This document shows, piece by piece, positions 45,534-58,328 of a stretch of DNA of 64,000 nucleotides. Where the stretch lies: positions 1 through 64,000 of the IMG/VR virus record IMGVR_UViG_3300022934_003307; one strand, 5' to 3'. The position numbers were made by a program, and so were the translations under genes. The notes under the pieces are model-generated. The model searched no databases and had not been told where the DNA came from. It worked only from the letters and a program-made list of their open reading frames with translations. Numbering within the stretch: position 1 is the first letter of the stretch; every line of letters begins with the position of its first letter. Origin of the DNA: a virus.

Positions 45534-46894
45534 ATAATAAAATAGAACAAACTATACTTCGAAATTTGCTTAGCGATGAGAAGTATATGAGGCGTGTATT
45601 GCCTTTTATTAAACCTGAATACTTTGAAGGTCCATATCGTACTTTATTCAAAGAAGCTGGTAAGTATGTAGCAAAGTATAATAAATTGCCTACCGCTGAA
45701 TCATTTATGGTTGAGCTGAATAATTCAGATGTAAGTGGTGATGCTTACACCGCAGCATGTGAAATTGCTGAAACATTATTTGTTGGTGATTCAGTTGATG
45801 AACAATGGCTTATTGATAACACTGAAAAGTGGTGTCAAGATCGTGCAATCTATAATGCTGTAATGGAATCAATTACTATCATTGATGGTAAGCATGATAA
45901 ATTAACTAAGAATAGTCTTCCATCTCTTTTACAAGATGCACTAGCTGTAACATTCGATGCTTCAGTTGGACATGACTATACAGAAGATGCAGGATTAAGA
46001 TATGACTTTTATCACACTGAAGAAGATAGAATTCCTTTTGATTTGGAATACTTTAATAAAATTACTAAAGGAGGTGTACCTAATAAAACCCTCAACATTG
46101 CTTTGGCTGGGACTGGGGTTGGCAAATCTTTGTTTATGTGTCACGTTGCTGCTAACGCATTACTTGAAGGAAGGAACGTTCTTTACATAACAATGGAAAT
46201 GGCAGAAGAAAGAATAGCAGAACGTATTGATGCTAATTTACTTAATGTAGCCATTGATCAATTAGATAATTTATCTAAAGATATGTTTACAACTAAAGTT
46301 GCTGACCTTGCGCGTAAAACAACTGGTAAATTAATTATTAAAGAATATCCCACTGGTTCTGCACATGCTGGTCATTTTAGAGCATTATTAAATGAATTAA
46401 AATTAAAGAAACAATTCTTACCTGATATTATCTTTATTGATTATTTAAATATTTGTGCATCTAGTAGAATGAAAGGAATGGGCGGTGCTATCAATTCATA
46501 CAACTACATTAAAGCAATTGCTGAAGAACTACGAGGTCTTGCAGTGGAATACGACCTACCGATATTCTCTGCAACGCAAACGACTCGCAGTGGTTATAGC
46601 AACTCGGATGTTGGGCTTGAAGATACCTCTGAGTCTTTTGGATTACCCGCTACCGCAGACCTCATGTTCGCACTCATCTCAACCGAAGAACTTGAAAAAT
46701 CACGTCAAATTATGGTTAAGCAACTTAAAAATCGTTATAATGATCCTACTCATCATAAAAGATTTGTTATTGGTATTGATCGAAGTCGTATGCGCCTTTA
46801 TGATGTGGATGATTCCCAACAAACGTTAACTGATGATACACCAGTTTTTGATAAAACTCCAGCCGGTAAAAAGTTTGAAGATTTTAAATTATGA
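45530..46894 (+). CDS. 41: replicative DNA helicase, gp41-like
   Basis: This 454-residue DnaB-family helicase has an N-terminal helical domain (1-110), Walker A 'LAGTGVGKSLF' near residue 191, Walker B 'IIFIDYLNI' near 303 and 'SATQTTRSGY' near 344 (motif H3 region). It unwinds DNA 5' to 3' ahead of gp43. It overlaps the following glycosyltransferase gene by 4 bases. Confidence 0.94.
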   Translation: MNNKIEQTILRNLLSDEKYMRRVLPFIKPEYFEGPYRTLFKEAGKYVAKYNKLPTAESFMVELNNSDVSGDAYTAACEIAETLFVGDSVDEQWLIDNTEKWCQDRAIYNAVMESITIIDGKHDKLTKNSLPSLLQDALAVTFDASVGHDYTEDAGLRYDFYHTEEDRIPFDLEYFNKITKGGVPNKTLNIALAGTGVGKSLFMCHVAANALLEGRNVLYITMEMAEERIAERIDANLLNVAIDQLDNLSKDMFTTKVADLARKTTGKLIIKEYPTGSAHAGHFRALLNELKLKKQFLPDIIFIDYLNICASSRMKGMGGAINSYNYIKAIAEELRGLAVEYDLPIFSATQTTRSGYSNSDVGLEDTSESFGLPATADLMFALISTEELEKSRQIMVKQLKNRYNDPTHHKRFVIGIDRSRMRLYDVDDSQQTLTDDTPVFDKTPAGKKFEDFKL

Positions 46895-50073: not shown

Positions 50074-50555
50074 TGGCTAAGAAAAAGAAAAAAGAATCGA
50101 TTGATGATGATGGATTCATTACGATCGATACTAGTAAATTTGCTTTTAGTGAAGGAGAAGGCGGAGGATCTACGTATGCTTATAATCCATATGCTATTGG
50201 TGTAGATATTGATCCTGATTGGCTAGGTGTTGCTAATCCAGATACCGCTACAGTTAATTCAGACGTCACTTTTACGATAGCTCAAAATATTGATTATAAA
50301 TTCAATGAAAAAGAAATTGTAAAGCAAATTCAAGAATATGTTGATGCTACATATACTCAACATTATGCTAAGAATAAATTTCAAGCAACTGAGTTTATTT
50401 TCGATAGTGGCCATGCAGAAGGCTTTTGCATGGGCAACATTATGAAGTACGCTCAACGTTATGGAAAAAAAGATGGTTATAATCGAAATGACTTAATGAA
50501 AGTTATTCATTATGCTATCATGGCTGTACACAACCATGATTTAAATCATCAATAA
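50073..50555 (+). CDS. DUF3310 / nucleotide-kinase-like protein
   Basis: This 160-residue protein has a C-terminal segment 'GFCMGNIMKYAQRYGKKDGY' near 116 and 'DLMKVIHYAIMAVHNH' near 140, the DUF3310 pattern (GNxxKYxxRxGxKxG...DLxKxxxY). The first 80 residues are low-complexity and variable. The family is common in phages, without proven activity that I know of. It overlaps the convergent gene at 50549 by 7 bases. Confidence 0.75.
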   Translation: MAKKKKKESIDDDGFITIDTSKFAFSEGEGGGSTYAYNPYAIGVDIDPDWLGVANPDTATVNSDVTFTIAQNIDYKFNEKEIVKQIQEYVDATYTQHYAKNKFQATEFIFDSGHAEGFCMGNIMKYAQRYGKKDGYNRNDLMKVIHYAIMAVHNHDLNHQ

Positions 50556-50761
50556 ACTTCTGGTTTTATTTTTGTAGTATCTACTAGTTTAGGTTTGCAA
50601 TAGGCAAATGGTGATTGTTCGTCAGGTATTTTTCCTCGGCCATATCTTTTCACCATTTGTCCAGCAAAATAATTACATCTTTCGATTGACCAAAAGTGCA
50701 TGTCTTGGCTTACTACATTACCATCTATCATAAGTATGAGAACAAACACATGTGCTAACAT
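50549..50761 (-). CDS. small protein with N-terminal hydrophobic segment
   Basis: This 70-residue protein on the minus strand has an N-terminus, 'MLAHVFVLILMIDGNVVSQD', that looks like a short signal or anchor. Cys and aromatic residues follow ('HFWSIERCNYFAGQMVKRYG'). It follows the 158-residue membrane protein with no gap and probably shares its late promoter. Function unknown. Confidence 0.65.
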   Translation of the reverse strand: MLAHVFVLILMIDGNVVSQDMHFWSIERCNYFAGQMVKRYGRGKIPDEQSPFAYCKPKLVDTTKIKPEVY

Positions 50762-51238
50762 TTACCAACGACCTTGACCTTTTCCTATTAACCAAAGTAC
50801 AAATCCAGTTATTGCGAGTCCAAATACAACAAGAAGAGTTCCTACTGTCCATTCTATAATTTTTTGTTTCATTTCTTCTTTAGCATAAATCGCTTCTTTT
50901 TGCTCTTTACGCATTTGTGCTTCAATTCTTATTATTTCATCCCAGGCAGATGGTCCATAATATAGACTGATGTAAGAGCGAAGTTCCTCGCGCATTTCTT
51001 GCGCCTTCTTTTTATGCATCCACACTTCCATCGCGTTGGCCTCTACACCACCGCCAAGTTTTTTATACCATGGAGGTTTCTCTGCTTTGTTATGTGCATA
51101 ATCTAAATCTGAAATGGCTTTTGACCATTGGCTGAGCTGCGAGCCCATATCTTGGATCTCTTTGCCCATACTTATAGCTTGTTTTATACCATTATAGGCC
51201 GTCGTAGCTAGGCCTATCGCTGTTACTGGATCTATCAT
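50762..51238 (-). CDS. coiled-coil membrane protein, unknown
   Basis: This 158-residue protein has a long charged helix (residues 75-130, 'AQMRKEQKEAIYAKEEMKQK') followed by one membrane span at about 130-150 ('LLVVFGLAITGFVLWLIG') and a short basic tail. The N-terminal 60 residues are helical and less charged. A minus-strand TATAAATA lies about 75 bases upstream, so it is probably late. It could be a virion or lysis-associated membrane protein. Confidence 0.7.
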   Translation of the reverse strand: MIDPVTAIGLATTAYNGIKQAISMGKEIQDMGSQLSQWSKAISDLDYAHNKAEKPPWYKKLGGGVEANAMEVWMHKKKAQEMREELRSYISLYYGPSAWDEIIRIEAQMRKEQKEAIYAKEEMKQKIIEWTVGTLLVVFGLAITGFVLWLIGKGQGRW

Positions 51239-51318: not shown

Positions 51319-51359
51319 AACAGTGACACTTTTGTTTATATTAAATAAAAAATAAAGTG

Positions 51360-51388
51360 TTTACATTTCTTAAAAGTTTTGATATAAT
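51360..51388 (+). promoter_or_regulatory. early/sigma70-type promoter of the tmRNA locus
   Basis: TTTACA (51360-51365), 17 bases, TATAAT (51383-51388). The predicted start near 51395 coincides with the first base-paired segment of the acceptor RNA, which supports both calls. Confidence 0.82.
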
Positions 51389-51394
51389 ATATAG

Positions 51395-51451
51395 TATGGT
51401 AGATGTTAGAGGACAGACAGGACTCGGGGGCGGTACCCGACGCCTCCACCA
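51395..51451 (+). ncRNA. ssrA: two-piece permuted tmRNA, acceptor RNA piece
   Basis: This segment ends in CGCCTCC-A-CCA (51441-51451), an acceptor strand with encoded CCA. It pairs over 7 bp with GGGGGCG at 51712-51718 (one G-U). A T-arm-like hairpin TCGGG-(GGCGGTA)-CCCGA occupies 51424-51440, although the 7-base loop lacks the usual TTCRA bases. Upstream, CAGAC (51414-51418) pairs with GTTTG (51736-51740), and GTAGAT (51399-51404) pairs with GTCTAC (51742-51747), giving the tmRNA P2 helix. GGAC between P2 and the T stem also matches tmRNA. The order acceptor piece first, coding piece second, is the permuted arrangement of alphaproteobacteria. Confidence 0.88.
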
Positions 51452-51471
51452 TAAATACACTAGGAGTGATT

Positions 51472-51699
51472 ATGCCCGATGATGAAAACAAAAAAATTGT
51501 AGAAGTAAAAAACGAACCAAACTCATTTGAGTTAATGTTAAGAGTTTTAGGAAATGAGTTTATTGGAATTAGATTAGCATCAACAAATGCTAGTGGTAAA
51601 ATGATTTTATGGGCTATATTACTATTATTCTTTACTTTCATGATTATGGAAGTCTTTGGATTCAATCAGTATTTTACTGGAATTGATTATTACGAGTAG
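51472..51699 (+). CDS. membrane protein encoded inside the tmRNA intervening segment
   Basis: This 75-residue protein starts at ATG 51472 with TAGGAG six to ten bases upstream. The first 45 residues are charged ('MPDDENKKIVEVKNEPNSFE'). A single membrane span follows ('MILWAILLLFFTFMIMEVFG', about 46-65), with a short tail ending DYYE. It lies entirely between the acceptor RNA (ending 51451) and the coding RNA (starting 51712), so it is transcribed from the tmRNA promoter and would be released when the precursor is processed. No homologous family is recognised. Confidence 0.75.
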   Translation: MPDDENKKIVEVKNEPNSFELMLRVLGNEFIGIRLASTNASGKMILWAILLLFFTFMIMEVFGFNQYFTGIDYYE

Positions 51700-51711
51700 T
51701 GTATTTATGAT

Positions 51712-51845
51712 GGGGGCGAACTAGGATCGACTGATGTTTGAGTCTACGAAAAATAACTGCAAACGATAACTTTGCACCTTCAGATTACGCTTTAGCGGCA
51801 TAATGCTGACGGGTTGGGCACTTACCTTGGAACAGAAAAGTGTCA
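51712..51845 (+). ncRNA. ssrA: two-piece permuted tmRNA, coding RNA piece
   Basis: It begins GGGGGCGAACTAGGATCGAC, the typical tmRNA 5' acceptor strand and D-like region. The tag frame runs GCA (51759) to TAA (51801-51803) and encodes ANDNFAPSDYALAA, with the ANDNF start of alphaproteobacterial tags and the common ALAA degron end. ATAACT directly precedes the resume codon. After the tag, GGGT (51811-51814) with ACCT (51824-51827) and GGCACTT (51817-51823) with AAGTGTC (51838-51844) form an H-type pseudoknot, as expected at the 3' end of a coding RNA. Only 18 bases lie between P2 and the resume codon, so no PK1 pseudoknot is present. The exact 3' end is uncertain by several bases. Confidence 0.9.
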
Positions 51846-51874
51846 CCATTAATTTAAATCAAAGGAAGAAAAAT

Positions 51875-52335: not shown

Positions 52336-53268
52336 ATGAATTATTTTGAATTAAAACCTGAAGAAAACACATTTTCAAATATTGTAATAGATCTTACTCA
52401 TAGATGTAATATGGAGTGCGCTAATTGTTATATCCCAAATAGAGATATTCCAGATCTAAATAAAAATAAACTATATGAGTTTTTATCTAAACTTCCTCAT
52501 AGAACATATATAAGATTAATTGGTGCTGAACCAACAATGCGTGATGATTTGCCGGAAATTATATCTACGGTTAAAAAGCTTGGTCATCGCCCAAGTGTAA
52601 CTACTAATGGATTAAAACTAGCTAGAAGAGAATATGTAAAACAACTAAAAAATGCTGGTCTTAGATTATTACTTCATAGTATGAATGGTGCCGATGATGA
52701 TATGGCATATAAAGAATTGGATAATGGTAATTGGGCTACAGTTAAAGTAAGAGCATTAGATAATATATTTGCTGAAAGACTACCAATTAATACTGGTACT
52801 ATTATCGCTCGTGGTGTAAATGAATACATAATGAATAGACAAGTAGAAGTGTTTGCTGAAAGAGCAATAAAGTCTGGAATCAATTTTAATACTACTGCTC
52901 CATATAATAGAATTACACCAGTTTTAAGAATGAAATCTGTAGGTGCAATCGGTAGATATATGGAAGGAGTGTCTTATACAATTGATGAATTAATTGAAAT
53001 GGCAAGTTATAGATTAGGCGTAAATAAATCAGATATGATTCAAACATCTGCGGGTGTTGTTAAAGCTGGTCCATCAATGGAGGCTTTAACATCTTGGATG
53101 TTTCCATATGAAACAGAAGCTGGTAAAATATTAATTAGACTTATAGATTGGCAAACTGATGATGATGGTGTTATCGATCATGATAATCCAAATAGAGGTA
53201 GACTTACCGAAAATTTTACAGTAGCACCTTTCTTTGAACATGTTAAAGTAAATGAGAACAATTACTAA
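52336..53268 (+). CDS. radical SAM enzyme
   Basis: This 310-residue radical SAM protein has the cluster motif CNMECANC (Cys 24, 28, 31), a 'GAEPTMRDDL' loop near 65 (the GGEP SAM-binding motif with Ala for the second Gly), 'SVTTNGL' near 91 and 'LLLHSMNGADDD' near 115. The C-terminal third lacks an obvious Cys-rich SPASM domain. It heads the oxygenase cluster and overlaps the next gene by 17 bases, so it may act in the same modification pathway. The substrate is unknown. Confidence 0.85.
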   Translation: MNYFELKPEENTFSNIVIDLTHRCNMECANCYIPNRDIPDLNKNKLYEFLSKLPHRTYIRLIGAEPTMRDDLPEIISTVKKLGHRPSVTTNGLKLARREYVKQLKNAGLRLLLHSMNGADDDMAYKELDNGNWATVKVRALDNIFAERLPINTGTIIARGVNEYIMNRQVEVFAERAIKSGINFNTTAPYNRITPVLRMKSVGAIGRYMEGVSYTIDELIEMASYRLGVNKSDMIQTSAGVVKAGPSMEALTSWMFPYETEAGKILIRLIDWQTDDDGVIDHDNPNRGRLTENFTVAPFFEHVKVNENNY

Positions 53269-53758
53269 ATACGATAAACTTTGGTTTTATGCTTTAGATC
53301 AAATATTTGAAATGATTGAAAGAATACCAGATAACGATTATCTTAAAGAAAATTATTCTATAGATAATCTGCAATCTCATACATGGGAAGCAGTATCATA
53401 CGATAAAAATCAATTTTCTTCTATACTCCATAGAGATTTATGGGGTAACAATTGTAGAATTTTAAATAGATTCTATAAAACTCCAGAATCTAGATTCGAA
53501 AATTCAAAAGGGAAAATGTCTCAAGCTACTTTAGAAATGATTGATCAGCAATTAAAAGTTGCACATAAATTAGGATTTGATTGTGCATTTATGAGCAGAG
53601 AAAAAAATCATCAAGCATTTAGACACTATGTTAAACATTTACCACAAGATTGGTATATAGAAAATTCACCTTATCAAATGACAGAAACAAGTTGGCAACA
53701 TTTAATGTGGACACCAATAAATAGTAACATATTAATAATGGAGAATCAAAATGGTTAA
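53252..53758 (+). CDS. conserved protein in oxygenase cluster, unknown fold
   Basis: This 168-residue protein has 'CRILNRFYKTPESRFE' near 68, 'AHKLGFDCAFMSREKNHQAF' near 104 and 'HYVKHLPQDWYIENSPYQM' near 125. The spacing faintly recalls phage proteins with acetyltransferase-like folds, but I see no clear acyl-CoA motif. It is coupled to the radical SAM gene upstream and overlaps the first TauD-like gene by 8 bases. Confidence 0.65.
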   Translation: MRTITKYDKLWFYALDQIFEMIERIPDNDYLKENYSIDNLQSHTWEAVSYDKNQFSSILHRDLWGNNCRILNRFYKTPESRFENSKGKMSQATLEMIDQQLKVAHKLGFDCAFMSREKNHQAFRHYVKHLPQDWYIENSPYQMTETSWQHLMWTPINSNILIMENQNG

Positions 53759-54566
53759 AGTGATAGAAAATATTAATTATTCTATTGATGGCCCAAAAGT
53801 GGTAGAATATCTTGGCGATCATCGCACTGTAATTATTAAAAATAAACAACCAGTAGAACCTGAAACTCTTATAAGTTTTTATAAAACACTTGGTAATGTT
53901 ATTCAACAAAATGACAAAGTTACAGGAACTATTGCGACAGGTGAATTGGTTAAAGTTAGGCAAAACGGTTTATTTGCTGGTAAAGAAGATGGCGAATTAG
54001 AATGGCATTCAGCTGGAATGAATAGAACTGGTCATGATGATATCGTAGCAATGTATATGCATCAACCCGCTGAGAGTGGAGGTGATACTTATTTTACTGA
54101 TCATCAAACTGCTTGGAACGATCTTGATGAAGAAACAAAAAATATATGTCGCAGCGTAAAATCAAAAACAGTTACATATACATCTAAAATGAAATTAGAA
54201 AAAATGCACTATAAAAATGTATTTAGTGATGAACAAACTATGATGGAATTTAGAGATATAGATGGAAAAACTAGTTTTGAAAAACAAACACCTCGTAAAG
54301 ATTTAGTTACAAAACATCCTATTAATAATAAAGAAGGATTATATTATCCATGGAGTGTTATTAGAGGTTTTACTGGTTTAGATCGTGATCAACAACATTC
54401 TTTATATTATAAATTAAAAAGCCATACATTAAAATCAAAGTATGTTTATACGCATAAATGGGATAAATATGATATTGTTTTAAGCGACCAACATCATAGC
54501 TTACATAAACGTGATGCATATACCGGTGATCGTGAATTATGGAGGGCTGGAATATGCTTGAAATAG
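53751..54566 (+). CDS. TauD-like 2-oxoglutarate/Fe enzyme with HxA (halogenase-type) triad
   Basis: This 271-residue protein aligns over its length with TauD/TfdA: 'LEWHSAGMNR' (H86-S87-A88) sits where TauD has WHTD, followed by 'SGGDTYFTDHQTAW' as TauD 'TGGDTLWTS'. The distal His 252 lies in 'HHSLHKRDAY' and the 2-oxoglutarate Arg 265 in 'RELWRAGI'. The metal-binding Asp of HxD is Ala, the replacement known from SyrB2-type non-haem iron halogenases where chloride fills the site. It could be a halogenase, an enzyme with altered chemistry, or an inactive partner of the adjacent HxD paralogue. Confidence 0.8.
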   Translation: MVKVIENINYSIDGPKVVEYLGDHRTVIIKNKQPVEPETLISFYKTLGNVIQQNDKVTGTIATGELVKVRQNGLFAGKEDGELEWHSAGMNRTGHDDIVAMYMHQPAESGGDTYFTDHQTAWNDLDEETKNICRSVKSKTVTYTSKMKLEKMHYKNVFSDEQTMMEFRDIDGKTSFEKQTPRKDLVTKHPINNKEGLYYPWSVIRGFTGLDRDQQHSLYYKLKSHTLKSKYVYTHKWDKYDIVLSDQHHSLHKRDAYTGDRELWRAGICLK

Positions 54567-55282
54567 AATATAAAGATTATCATAAATTTAATCTTAAAGA
54601 AGAAGTATTATCTAATGGAATAGTTTGTATTAGAAATGCTGAGTTAACTATGCCTGAATTTGAAAAAATTGCTGAATCATTGGGTAAATTACTTAAAACA
54701 AATAAGCATGCTATAAATGAAAAAAGAAATATTCAAGAATTAAGTAATAATGAATTATTAAGAGATGGAGATGTTGATTGGCATAATGATTGGTCATATG
54801 GTAGAGGAAACTATTTTGGAACAATGCTGTATAATGTTAAGAATGCACACTTAAGTCCAACTTGGTTTGTTGATACTAGTAAAGTTCCATATTGGTTAAA
54901 GCTGCATTACATCGATTGTACAGGATATTATTGGTTGCCTCAGAAAAATAATGAAGTATATGCGTTTGGTACTGATTCTGAAATTAATAAATGCTTTACA
55001 GATAAACAATTAAAAATTTTAGAAAAGTATGTACAGAAAAGATCATTTGTAATGGATCATTTTAAAACAAATGAAGAACTTTTATATTGTAGTCTTGGCA
55101 CAATTCAAAAAATGGATAATGAAAAAGAATTAGATACATTTAGAGATTATTGTGAAAATAATAATTATAAACATGAATGGCAAGAAGGTGATATATTATT
55201 ATGGGATAATTTAAAAATGATTCATAAAAGAGTAGCTTTCGAAGGAGACCGTATTTTATGGAGGACTCAATTTTCAATATAG
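54554..55282 (+). CDS. TauD-like 2-oxoglutarate/Fe(II) dioxygenase
   Basis: This 242-residue protein has the complete triad: 'VDWHNDWSYG' (H77, D79), H224 in 'LKMIHKRVAF' and Arg 237 in 'RILWRTQF'. It is a divergent paralogue of the preceding gene, with the same C-terminal pattern (HKR ... DR..WR). It probably hydroxylates or desaturates a small molecule, peptide or nucleotide. ATG 54554 with GGAG nine bases before is used. It overlaps both neighbours. Confidence 0.82.
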   Translation: MLEIEYKDYHKFNLKEEVLSNGIVCIRNAELTMPEFEKIAESLGKLLKTNKHAINEKRNIQELSNNELLRDGDVDWHNDWSYGRGNYFGTMLYNVKNAHLSPTWFVDTSKVPYWLKLHYIDCTGYYWLPQKNNEVYAFGTDSEINKCFTDKQLKILEKYVQKRSFVMDHFKTNEELLYCSLGTIQKMDNEKELDTFRDYCENNNYKHEWQEGDILLWDNLKMIHKRVAFEGDRILWRTQFSI

Positions 55283-55701
55283 CTGTTATTAGTTTTCCAA
55301 GAACTGCTAGTAAATCATTAGCAGAATGGTATGGTAGAAAATATAATAAATCAGTTGCTCTTGGATCTTTACATACACCAGAATATCTAGGTGAAAATTT
55401 ATATGACACTAAAAAAATAGTGAAAGATAAAACAGACATATTGCATGGCCATTGGCATTCTCTTCATAAATTAGATACGGAAACTTTAGGTGATTTATTT
55501 CTTAATTATAAAATTGTAACATGTTATAGAAAAGAAGAATTAGTAAGAGCATCTATATTGAGAGTTACAGGAAAAGATTTATTTGATAAAACAATGCACC
55601 AAACATTGAGAGAAAAAGGTCGATGGAAAATATGGAAAGAACATATAGTTAACGGAGATCAAGTTGAAACTGTTAAAGGAATACCACACGGCTATTGCTA
55701 G
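55258..55701 (+). CDS. sulfotransferase-like P-loop protein, short
   Basis: This 147-residue protein has 'VISFPRTASKSLAEWY' at residues 10-25, matching the 5'-phosphosulfate loop of sulfotransferases, and 'VTCYRKEELVRASILR' near 87, like the 3'-phosphate-binding Arg/Ser segment. Only the first half of a normal sulfotransferase (about 250 residues) is present. The last 38 bases overlap the next gene in another frame. It could be a minimal or degenerate PAPS-dependent enzyme. Confidence 0.6.
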   Translation: MEDSIFNIAVISFPRTASKSLAEWYGRKYNKSVALGSLHTPEYLGENLYDTKKIVKDKTDILHGHWHSLHKLDTETLGDLFLNYKIVTCYRKEELVRASILRVTGKDLFDKTMHQTLREKGRWKIWKEHIVNGDQVETVKGIPHGYC

Positions 55702-56302
55702 TGATTATGTTCTTCAATTAAATTATGAAGAATATAATTTAAAGAAATTAGAACAATGTTTTTGGAATAAGTATTCTTATAAAGATCCTACGCCAAAAGG
55801 TTGGCATAGTCTTCGTGAATTTGATGATATAATTCTTAATTGCTTACCTAAAAAATTAATTCCTTATTTAGTTACTAAAGATTTATTTGTATTATATTTT
55901 CATAATAAAAGACCTCCACGTCAACTATCAGATGGATTAGAACGAACAGTTATTCATCGTGACGGTGGAGACGTTATGAAATGGTATGCTCAAATTAATT
56001 TACCAGTTTATAATTGTAATGAAAATAGTAAGACTATATTCTGGGACACAGTTGGAGAATATAAAGATTTACCAGGTTTTAAATCTACTATGCTTAAAGA
56101 AGGAAATTTAAAGAAATCAATAGAGTTTGCTATGACTGATAAACCAGTATTATTTAATAGTCGTAAATATCATTCAGTTGATTTACCTGATTTAAAGGTT
56201 GAAAGAGCATCTTTCACTATTAGATTTAAAGAAGAATATAGTTGGGAAGATGCTAAAAAATTATGTGGAGAATACATTGAAGATACTACATCAGCACCCT
56301 AA
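55664..56302 (+). CDS. phage 2OG-Fe(II) oxygenase family member A
   Basis: This is a 212-residue protein from a TTG start with GGAG and a six-base spacer. The double-stranded beta-helix motif is 'VIHRDGG' (H98, D100), 'QINLPVYNC' near 110, distal 'NSRKYHSV' (H170) and 'ERASFTIRF' with the 2OG-type Arg near 181-187. It shares 'DYV..LN' at the N-terminus and 'SWEDAKKLC' at the C-terminus with paralogues at 56277 and 56809, which supports the TTG start and shows it is not a continuation of the sulfotransferase. The substrate is unknown. Confidence 0.78.
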   Translation: MKLLKEYHTAIASDYVLQLNYEEYNLKKLEQCFWNKYSYKDPTPKGWHSLREFDDIILNCLPKKLIPYLVTKDLFVLYFHNKRPPRQLSDGLERTVIHRDGGDVMKWYAQINLPVYNCNENSKTIFWDTVGEYKDLPGFKSTMLKEGNLKKSIEFAMTDKPVLFNSRKYHSVDLPDLKVERASFTIRFKEEYSWEDAKKLCGEYIEDTTSAP

Positions 56303-56873
56303 TCATAAATCGCATGATTATGTTGTACCTTTAAATATTAATATATCAAAAGCAAAAGATGTTTTTTTCAAATATTATAATGAAAAGAAAAAAACATTTT
56401 TAAATAGTTTTCCTATGAATGAAGAAGCTTTATCTATTTTGCCTGAAGAACTTCATCCATGGATAGAATTAAATCAAATATGGATAGGATATTTTCATAG
56501 CAAAAGAAAAACTGGTGCATATATTCCAATTCATGTAGATAATCATAGATCAAATGTTAAATATCCATGCAGTATTAATATACCTTTAATTGGATGTTCA
56601 GAAAATATTACTACAAGTTTTTGGGAACCAGTTGGAGAAGTAAGAGGATTAGAAAAACCTAAAGCTGAATGGTATGATTATGGACAATTAAATCATGCAT
56701 TTGAATTTGCTCTAACAGATACTGCAGTACTATATAATAATCAAAAATGGCATAGTGTTTTTAATCCAATGCCTCAAGATCATGAAAGAGCAATTATGAT
56801 TTTTAAATTTAGTAATGAAGTTCCTCAATGGGAGGACTGTCGTCAATTAACCCATGCTCTTCACAAAGTTTAA
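56277..56873 (+). CDS. phage 2OG-Fe(II) oxygenase family member B
   Basis: This 198-residue protein starts at TTG 56277 with GGAG upstream, MKILHQHPNHKSHDYVVPLN aligning with member A. The triad is 'PIHVDNH' (H86, D88) and H159 in 'NNQKWHSV', with 'ERAIMIFKF' near the end. 'SINIPLIGCSEN' near 99 is the family's central strand. The 3' end overlaps the convergent member C by 65 bases. An ATG at 56250 is possible but lacks support. Confidence 0.78.
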   Translation: MKILHQHPNHKSHDYVVPLNINISKAKDVFFKYYNEKKKTFLNSFPMNEEALSILPEELHPWIELNQIWIGYFHSKRKTGAYIPIHVDNHRSNVKYPCSINIPLIGCSENITTSFWEPVGEVRGLEKPKAEWYDYGQLNHAFEFALTDTAVLYNNQKWHSVFNPMPQDHERAIMIFKFSNEVPQWEDCRQLTHALHKV

Positions 56874-57426
56874 TTGCATCTTCCCAACTAATTCCTGGTT
56901 TAAATCTCCAGCTTAATCCAATTCTTAAATCATCACTATTATTGTCTACGCTATGTGGCCATTCAGTTCGAAACAAAACTGCATGATCTTTCATTACAAA
57001 GCTTTCTTTAATTACTAAATCAGATTTATTTACTATATCTCTTGCTGGTATATTTAAATAGATATATTCTAAATCTCTATTATCTTCAAAATCCCAAAAA
57101 TGTGTAACTACTCGTTCATCACAATTTTTAACGGGTATATTAATTGAAACAGTATATGTATTTTCTGGTGTATTAGCCTGCCCATCAGCATGAATTGGTA
57201 TATTATATTTTGGAAATACATTTAACACGAGAACCACATCTCTTAAATATTCACTAATTGGACCAATTGTAGATATTAATTTTTTAGAAACTGGAATATG
57301 GTTATTCCATTTTTTCATTCGTTTTAGTAAATCTAAATCAGCATTTTTTAAAAAATTTTCATTAATATATTCATAATAAAAATCTTTAGGAATATGAAAT
57401 CCCTTGAGAGGAACTATATATTTCAT
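56809..57426 (-). CDS. phage 2OG-Fe(II) oxygenase family member C
   Basis: This 205-residue minus-strand protein has 'PIHADGQA' (H79, D81), 'VSINIPVKNC' near 93, H158 in 'TEWPHSVDN', Arg 168 and a C-terminal 'GISWEDAIKLCEEHG'. It is the same family as A and B on the other strand, arranged tail to tail with B. The coding ends overlap, so the WED motif region of B and the tail of C are read from complementary strands. It starts inside member D's 3' end. Confidence 0.78.
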   Translation of the reverse strand: MKYIVPLKGFHIPKDFYYEYINENFLKNADLDLLKRMKKWNNHIPVSKKLISTIGPISEYLRDVVLVLNVFPKYNIPIHADGQANTPENTYTVSINIPVKNCDERVVTHFWDFEDNRDLEYIYLNIPARDIVNKSDLVIKESFVMKDHAVLFRTEWPHSVDNNSDDLRIGLSWRFKPGISWEDAIKLCEEHGLIDDSPPIEELHY

Positions 57427-57877
57427 TTAATTCTCCAACCGTTTGAGTATAACTCAAACTCAATACAACTCTATTAAATGGACTGAGACTATTATCAACT
57501 CGATGAGGTATATCAACTCTCCAACATTTCGCAGTTTTTAAATCTATTGATTCAATCACTTCATCATTTTTCATATATTGAAACATACTAGTATGATGAA
57601 CTTTAATTGGTATGTTGATTGCAGTAATTCTTTGTTTTAATCCAGCTTCTGCAGCTTTATTATCAATATGTGTTTTACACACTGTTTTTGCTGGAACCAT
57701 AATGATAGATGCATATTCTGGTTTTGGTACATTTAAATATGATATTTTGTTTAAGTACTCTTCATTTAATCTAAATGGTCTTATAGACCAGTTTGGCTCT
57801 GTAATAACATCGCCGATTTTTAAAATCCATTGTTTATCATTGGGTTTTAAATTCGTTTTCACTTCAAACCATTTCAT
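57386..57877 (-). CDS. phage 2OG-Fe(II) oxygenase family member D, short
   Basis: This 163-residue minus-strand protein has 'CKTHIDNKA' (H70, D72), 'ITAINIPIKV' near 84, H125 in 'VDIPHRVDN' and Arg 136 in 'FNRVVLSLSY'. The core is intact, but the N-terminal lead and WEDA tail of A-C are missing or changed. It overlaps C by 41 bases and E by 14. Confidence 0.72.
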   Translation of the reverse strand: MKWFEVKTNLKPNDKQWILKIGDVITEPNWSIRPFRLNEEYLNKISYLNVPKPEYASIIMVPAKTVCKTHIDNKAAEAGLKQRITAINIPIKVHHTSMFQYMKNDEVIESIDLKTAKCWRVDIPHRVDNSLSPFNRVVLSLSYTQTVGELNEIYSSSQGISYS

Positions 57878-58328
57878 TAACTAATCCTACAATATGATAT
57901 CTTAATAATTCTTTTTCTCCATTTAAAGCTGTATGTGTTTTAGTTGTATCAACACAATAAGCTCTACCAGCATTTAATCTATAAACTTCATCATTTACTA
58001 CAAATAAACATTTATCACTTGTAATTAAAGGGAAATGAATTCTAGGGCTTACATCAGTATGAATAGTATAACATGTTTGAGGATGTAAACACATTAGTCG
58101 AGAAGTCGACATATTAAATTTAGCAAAAAGATAATTTAAATTTGGTAAATCGAAAGTAGGATCTTTCCCCTTTTGTAAAAAAACATTATTGCTTTTATCA
58201 AGGGGCCAATCTTCTTCTATTTTTTTATAACTGTTAGAAATTTCTGGCGTTAATAAAAATTTTACTTCATTTAAAATTTCATTTAAATTTATTTCACCTA
58301 AATCATTCACTATATTCTGTAAAGTCAT
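57864..58328 (-). CDS. aspartyl/asparaginyl beta-hydroxylase-like oxygenase (member E)
   Basis: This 154-residue minus-strand protein resembles the AspH domain: 'YTIHTDVSPRIHFPLIT' (H90, D92, R96), 'NAGRAYCVDTTKTHTALN' (H132, N136) and 'ELLRYHIVGLV' (Arg 143). AspH-type enzymes hydroxylate Asp, Asn or, in relatives, other residues of proteins and peptides. It differs from A-D and adds a third oxygenase type to the cluster. Confidence 0.78.
   Translation of the reverse strand: MTLQNIVNDLGEINLNEILNEVKFLLTPEISNSYKKIEEDWPLDKSNNVFLQKGKDPTFDLPNLNYLFAKFNMSTSRLMCLHPQTCYTIHTDVSPRIHFPLITSDKCLFVVNDEVYRLNAGRAYCVDTTKTHTALNGEKELLRYHIVGLVNEMV

Follow-up and report, generated by a model that had tools for sequence, protein, structure and literature searches.

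The DNA analysed here (the window) is a stretch of 64,000 nucleotides and forms part of a virus record of 68,410 bp. The source virus looks like a T4-like marine phage, with T4-type structural and replication genes recognised by eye, and profile searches identified thyX, cell-wall hydrolase, radical SAM and TauD genes. Positions 51399–51849 of the window are an alpha-type circularly permuted tmRNA gene, all parts of which lie on the plus strand. The acceptor piece (51399–51451) includes the outer helix strand GTAGA (51399–51403), the T arm (51424–51440), the acceptor 3′ strand CGCCTCC (51441–51447) and ACCA (51448–51451). It is separated by an intervening segment (IVS, or spacer) of 260 nt (51452–51711) from the coding piece (51712–51849), which opens with the acceptor 5′ strand GGGGGCG. 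The tag frame, ANDNFAPSDYALAA, occupies 51759–51800 in the alignment to RF01849 and is followed by a TAA stop codon (51801–51803) and by a predicted pseudoknot strand pair, GGCACTT (51817–51823) and AAGTGTC (51838–51844). The IVS contains a gene of family F1 at 51472–51699 (+). Its product of 75 aa reads MPDDENKK...FGFNQYFTGIDYYE, the stop codon is TAG (51697–51699), and a Shine-Dalgarno (SD) sequence AGGAG (51462–51466) is found five nt before the ATG. The CCA end at 51451, the limits of the open reading frame (ORF), the start of the coding piece and the tag had all been called from the letters of the DNA, and each was borne out.

The proposal that the region is a permuted two-piece tmRNA, together with the suggestion that Rfam covariance models be searched, was upheld by matches to RF04321 (51399–51803; 67.5 bits, cut-off 47) and RF01849 (51356–51847; 60.3 bits, cut-off 50), both of which exceed the curated cut-off. 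The boundaries of the two pieces given above are supported by these models and by covariation. The order of elements is the permuted one, with the TΨC arm and CCA preceding the IVS and the acceptor 5′ strand and tag frame following it. ARAGORN misses the tmRNA of the window; a general blindness of this program to long spacers was considered and found to be wrong, as it finds spacers of up to 247 nt.

Eighteen tmRNAs of the window type were aligned to examine covariation. The acceptor stem, the T arm, the outer helix GTAGA/TCTAC (51399–51403/51743–51747) and the inner helix CAG/CTG (51418–51420/51731–51733) were paired in 100% of cells, and both the outer and the inner helix covary. For the whole structure 96.7% of cells were paired, falling to 38–48% when the partner strand was slid. 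The compensatory changes anticipated in relatives are present, with 44 double-change cells, a number reached in 0 of 500 shuffles. Three long-range pairings between the pieces had been put forward; the acceptor stem and the outer helix stand, and covary, and GTTTG/CAGAC is weakly supported, its tested columns being paired in 64% of cells.

These data bear on whether the tmRNA might be degenerate or a decoy, with the locus retained for the ORF alone. In favour of decay, the RF04321 score of 67.5 bits is below the ~145–167 bits of the best bacterial tmRNAs listed, and SmpB was not found in the 68-kb record, so that tmRNA activity would depend on the host. Against it stand the compensatory changes in the acceptor, T-arm and outer helices, the intact CCA, and the 7-bp acceptor stem with its G3-U70 pair, a G-U column (52/61) that is invariant. 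The tag frame retains an Ala-rich end, and many relatives have a tmRNA with a short, ORF-free spacer. A degenerate or decoy tmRNA is very improbable.

A further helix was missed by the sequence-only reading. A 12-bp stem formed by ATAAATACACTA (51451–51462) and TAGTGTATTTAT (51697–51708), the second strand including the stop codon of the F1 ORF, closes the spacer and continues the acceptor stem in the precursor. This predicted stem is strongly supported by covariation. Among 146 distinct phage tmRNAs with a spacer of at least 30 nt, 90.2% of cells were paired in the true register vs 38–57% in slid registers, and 455 double-change cells were counted vs no more than 177 in any of 300 shuffles. 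Restricting the set to spacers of at least 100 nt gave 88.9% paired cells. Both the acceptor and the closing stem are present in the MFE and centroid folds predicted for the precursor (z = −3.8). The closing stem is absent from the displayed Rfam consensus. Good pairing of the spacer ends is seen in bacteria too (6.4 of 8 positions in the best register, a value for which no baseline was computed), and such a stem is therefore probably a feature of permuted tmRNA at large. Since the spacer ends pair, the F1 ORF sits in the loop, with its SD sequence just inside and its stop codon within the stem. In several other insert families the SD sequence lies within the closing stem, where it could impose a block on translation of the folded precursor.

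The F1 ORF exceeds the ORFs found in dinucleotide shuffles of the IVS (p ~0.002). Relatives were found at 35 viral loci with one query and in at least 449 viral stretches with an alignment query. The search for the same insert in other phages, proposed with the original reading, placed F1 in the tmRNA spacer of 16 other viral contigs (L002–L013 and L029–L032); the F1 locus of L035 is cut by the contig end, and in L001, L016, L017, L024 and others a tmRNA is nearby with the F1 ORF outside its spacer. In-spacer copies have a pN/pS of 0.21, with pN < pS in 40 of 40 pairs, indicating purifying selection. The small size of the ORF and the lack of a Pfam or PHROG match would suit a chance open sequence in a long spacer, but the selection test contradicts this explanation, as do the shuffle test and the number of relatives, and it is scarcely credible. 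The claim that the IVS holds a genuine protein gene is therefore confirmed by selection, by its conserved place and by free-standing homologues in other phages.

Three changes of the in-spacer label are needed on the F1 tree, and well-supported branches force at least two of them; the window type and the L029 type are separate. The tree was built on few columns and its deeper order is unsure. The longest F1 spacer, of 443 nt, is that of L002 (2797–3240; also in L003) and contains two ORFs, the first being a DUF6356 relative. F1 extends 30 nt into the coding piece in these two contigs.

The F1 product is predicted to be a small membrane protein of 75 aa. Its structural model is of moderate confidence (pLDDT 69) and has helices at residues 18–36, 40–62 (hydrophobic) and 64–69. 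The product gave no Pfam, PHROG or BFVD match and no significant PDB match, the model gave no structural relative, and neither F1 nor its consensus matched the named phage collection. No homology to known holins, antiholins or spanins was seen. Endolysin or cell-wall hydrolase genes flank 34 of 75 free-standing and 21 of 23 in-spacer F1 copies, and because of this proximity a role in lysis is perhaps a reasonable guess, and no more. A 158-aa gene at 50762–51238 (−) of the window belongs to phrog_32327. In many phages its relatives, on one strand or the other, are neighbours of free-standing F1; it is possibly a functional partner of F1.

The promoter of the locus is sigma70-like, TTTACA-17-TATAAT with TG before the −10 element (51360–51388, +). 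It matches the consensus at 11 of 12 positions and lies directly upstream of the acceptor piece, in agreement with the strong promoter reported there from the sequence. Of 220 phage tmRNAs, 163 have an exact T4-type late box, TATAAATA, at 15–75 nt upstream of the acceptor core, vs 1 of 220 in a control interval. In 12 of 19 tmRNAs of the window type, 5–6 nt separate the end of this box from the first paired base, and it often overlaps TATAAT; in the window itself TATAAT is kept and the late box is degenerate, TATATAGT. Expression of the locus may have early and late timing. The distance from CCA to the F1 ATG is 20 nt, a leader that fits no separate promoter, and hence the ORF would have to use the tmRNA promoter or readthrough. 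The postulated single precursor for the tmRNA and F1 is supported by this gap and by the only good promoter being located upstream of the acceptor piece.

Viral and bacterial sets were collected with a tmRNA pattern that takes no account of what the spacer contains. A spacer of 100 nt or more was found in 40 of 108 viral vs 1 of 102 bacterial tmRNAs (Fisher p ~1e-12), one false pair having been removed from the bacterial set (L250). L250, which seemed to carry smpB in its spacer, has a one-piece tmRNA next to smpB, the upstream match having arisen by chance. RF04321 matched 359 of 385 alphaproteobacterial genomes in an independent sample taken across the class; among the matches listed the spans were mostly 185–250 nt vs 405 for the window. 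No spacer ORF was seen in G113, G122 and G311, which have longer spans and in which the pattern paired the wrong acceptor piece. In the long viral spacers, a sense ORF beyond shuffles (p < 0.05) was found in 25 of 39 and an antisense ORF in 3 of 39. SD-like sites precede 17 of those 25 sense ORFs vs 40 of 191 of all ATGs in IVS.

At least four protein families unrelated to F1 occupy the spacer slot. F2 was in the spacer at 63 of 80 loci, F9 at 52 of 76, F3 at 11 of 79 and F6 at 15 of 15; these loci were fetched by ORF similarity with near-copies included, so that the counts are not independent events. At least four of eight F2 loci scored as lacking a tmRNA have the coding piece when read. The pN/pS values are 0.26 for F2, 0.28 for F9, 0.24 for F3 and 0.32 for F6, giving a range of 0.24–0.32. 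The F2 spacers of L127, L095, L113 and L129 have two overlapping short ORFs in different frames, for an LGDSDEEP peptide and a membrane peptide, the first SD lying within the closing stem. The window gene at 50549–50761 (−), considered by eye as an F3 relative, was dropped (BLASTP E = 1.3).

In a permuted tmRNA the spacer forms no part of the mature RNA, and it is generally short. Permuted two-piece tmRNA in alphaproteobacteria is said to have been described by Keiler et al. in 2000. The window shares with that type the order of acceptor piece, IVS and coding piece, the tRNA-like domain, the tag frame and the expected processing by RNase P and at the 3′ end. It differs in its coding spacer of 260 nt, bacterial spacers being short (median 31 nt) with no protein gene seen in them. 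Processing by RNase P and by the tRNA 3′ pathway is expected of permuted precursors in general (PMC3985003). A survey of 97,179 tmRNAs reports homing-endonuclease ORFs in group I introns of tmRNA genes (PMC11915505). These are likewise protein ORFs within a tmRNA precursor, but they lie in a self-splicing T-loop intron, whereas the ORF of the window lies in a spacer predicted to be processed; the T arm is intact and no Rfam intron family matched in the window. Single cases of permuted tmRNA with tRNA-Ala or a repeat in the IVS (PMC11915505) have extra content there, as in the window, but not protein genes.

The cultured Methylophilales phage Melnitz (L036, MZ577097.1), like the window, combines an alpha-type permuted tmRNA with a T4-like marine phage. 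The published passages on its tmRNA report a two-piece molecule and a glutamine riboswitch and do not mention a spacer ORF (PMC9004378). An unannotated ORF of 54 codons, of the F6 family, is present in the Melnitz spacer at ~46096–46260. Its product reads MFKWLSKTRLVVITRDYF..., and it extends 42 nt into the coding piece; an F3 gene is found directly before the tmRNA. The sequence-only reading held that a protein gene in this position was not known to be described, and searches of open-access papers turned up no account of protein-coding inserts in permuted tmRNA spacers. The present analysis adds the generality of spacer genes and the exchange of inserts.

Taken together, it is likely that the phage two-piece tmRNA is functional and that its spacer is used as a site for protein genes. 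Transcription would begin on or beside the first paired base of the acceptor piece, giving one transcript in which the acceptor and closing stems unite the tmRNA halves and leave the ORF, from SD to stop, in the loop. The F1 ORF would be translated either from the precursor or from the excised spacer. RNase P is expected to cut at 51711/51712, generating the 5′ end of the coding piece at GGGG, and tRNA 3′-end processing would trim the CCA end; the released pieces would then rescue ribosomes with host SmpB. The spacer would be a tolerant, exchangeable slot in which small phage genes have been placed repeatedly, to be co-expressed with the tmRNA. The F1 stop codon of the window would remain in the spacer after excision, 12 nt ahead of the expected RNase P cut, so that cleavage need not affect F1 translation.

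The spacer arrangement is recurrent, with exchangeable inserts, and is not a single curiosity. Grouping of tmRNA bodies by single linkage at 88% identity or above gave ten clusters with differing spacer contents, for example F1 or F9; F9 or 24–29 nt; F2 or 32 nt; and F3, a 75-aa ORF or 30 nt. Such exchange among near-identical tmRNAs would be expected if the slot were neutral and selfishly used, entered by recombination or homing and translated incidentally, with no functional link to the tmRNA; this is compatible with the anatomy proposed above. An HNH/endonuclease VII-like ORF fills the tmRNA spacer of L367 (2740–3314; also in L369), preceded by a TATAAATA box. It has a PHROG endonuclease match (E 7e-20), F2 genes lie just upstream of this tmRNA, and the ORF is a possible homing driver of insert exchange. 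The L065 insert has a homologue in L031, where it is a free gene next to the tmRNA (E 9e-36). From these examples and Melnitz, neighbourhood genes occur both in and beside the slot, as do F1 and F3 genes. Against this, the ORF remains inside the spacer, at a conserved spacing, in every one of the 15 F6 loci and in most of the F2 and F9 loci examined, and its start codon usually follows shortly after CCA. Placement therefore looks maintained, although this does not prove a link to ribosome rescue. A neutral slot is less likely than not, but a fair possibility.

The sequence-only reading had also suggested that processing couples rescue to expression of the protein. RNase P cleavage would then end the IVS mRNA or make it non-stop, so that tmRNA and protein production would be mutually exclusive, somewhat as in arfA, a regulatory circuit that we regard as rather unlikely. 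There is no homology to arfA (PMC3989581; PMC10107115), and the parallel is not applicable to the window ORF, which keeps its stop codon. Coupling is most plausible for F9, the stop of which would lie inside the mature tmRNA. All 32 distinct F9 ORFs enter the coding piece and stop 13–59 nt past its first base, so that cleavage would create a non-stop mRNA. Several free-standing F9 proteins share a similar MGxx tail; hence the C terminus of F9 appears to be authentic, and its stop codon would be lost on RNase P cleavage. F2 and F3 stop exactly 1 nt before the RNase P site. On the other hand, the window family, with the exception of one lineage (L002/L003), has its stop within the spacer, 7–12 nt before the site. 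The stops are supplied by the terminal TGAT and GAAATAG motifs of the tmRNA gene itself, and the overlap may therefore be opportunistic.

Carried further, coupling would give the transcripts of these loci a dual function, with translation of the nested message and maturation of the tmRNA shutting each other out in a self-adjusting switch, a tentative idea to which we give limited weight. F9-type and many F6-type stops lie in the coding piece, and a cleaved message might conceivably become a substrate of its own tmRNA. With similar reserve, the window locus might be a milder form that shares only one precursor.

In the preferred reading, that of a functional tmRNA with a spacer used for protein genes, the marine-phage spacer appears to be a recurrent, exchangeable gene slot in which an mRNA is overlaid on a housekeeping RNA gene. 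This reading predicts numerous small, conserved phage proteins under tmRNA features, where annotation may skip them, one of them in a cultured phage. It also offers a well-defined setting for two questions: the reason for tmRNA carriage by phages, and the possible regulation of a nested message through processing of the structured RNA around it.

A perfect 11-nt inverted repeat flanks the locus, GTGACACTTTT at 51323–51333 and AAAAGTGTCAC at 51837–51847. The downstream arm overlaps a pseudoknot strand and the upstream arm precedes the promoter, and an att-like or closing role, which was considered, was set aside on these grounds. Downstream of the tmRNA, at 52336–58328, radical SAM and TauD-type genes are followed by several small genes that look oxygenase-like by eye.
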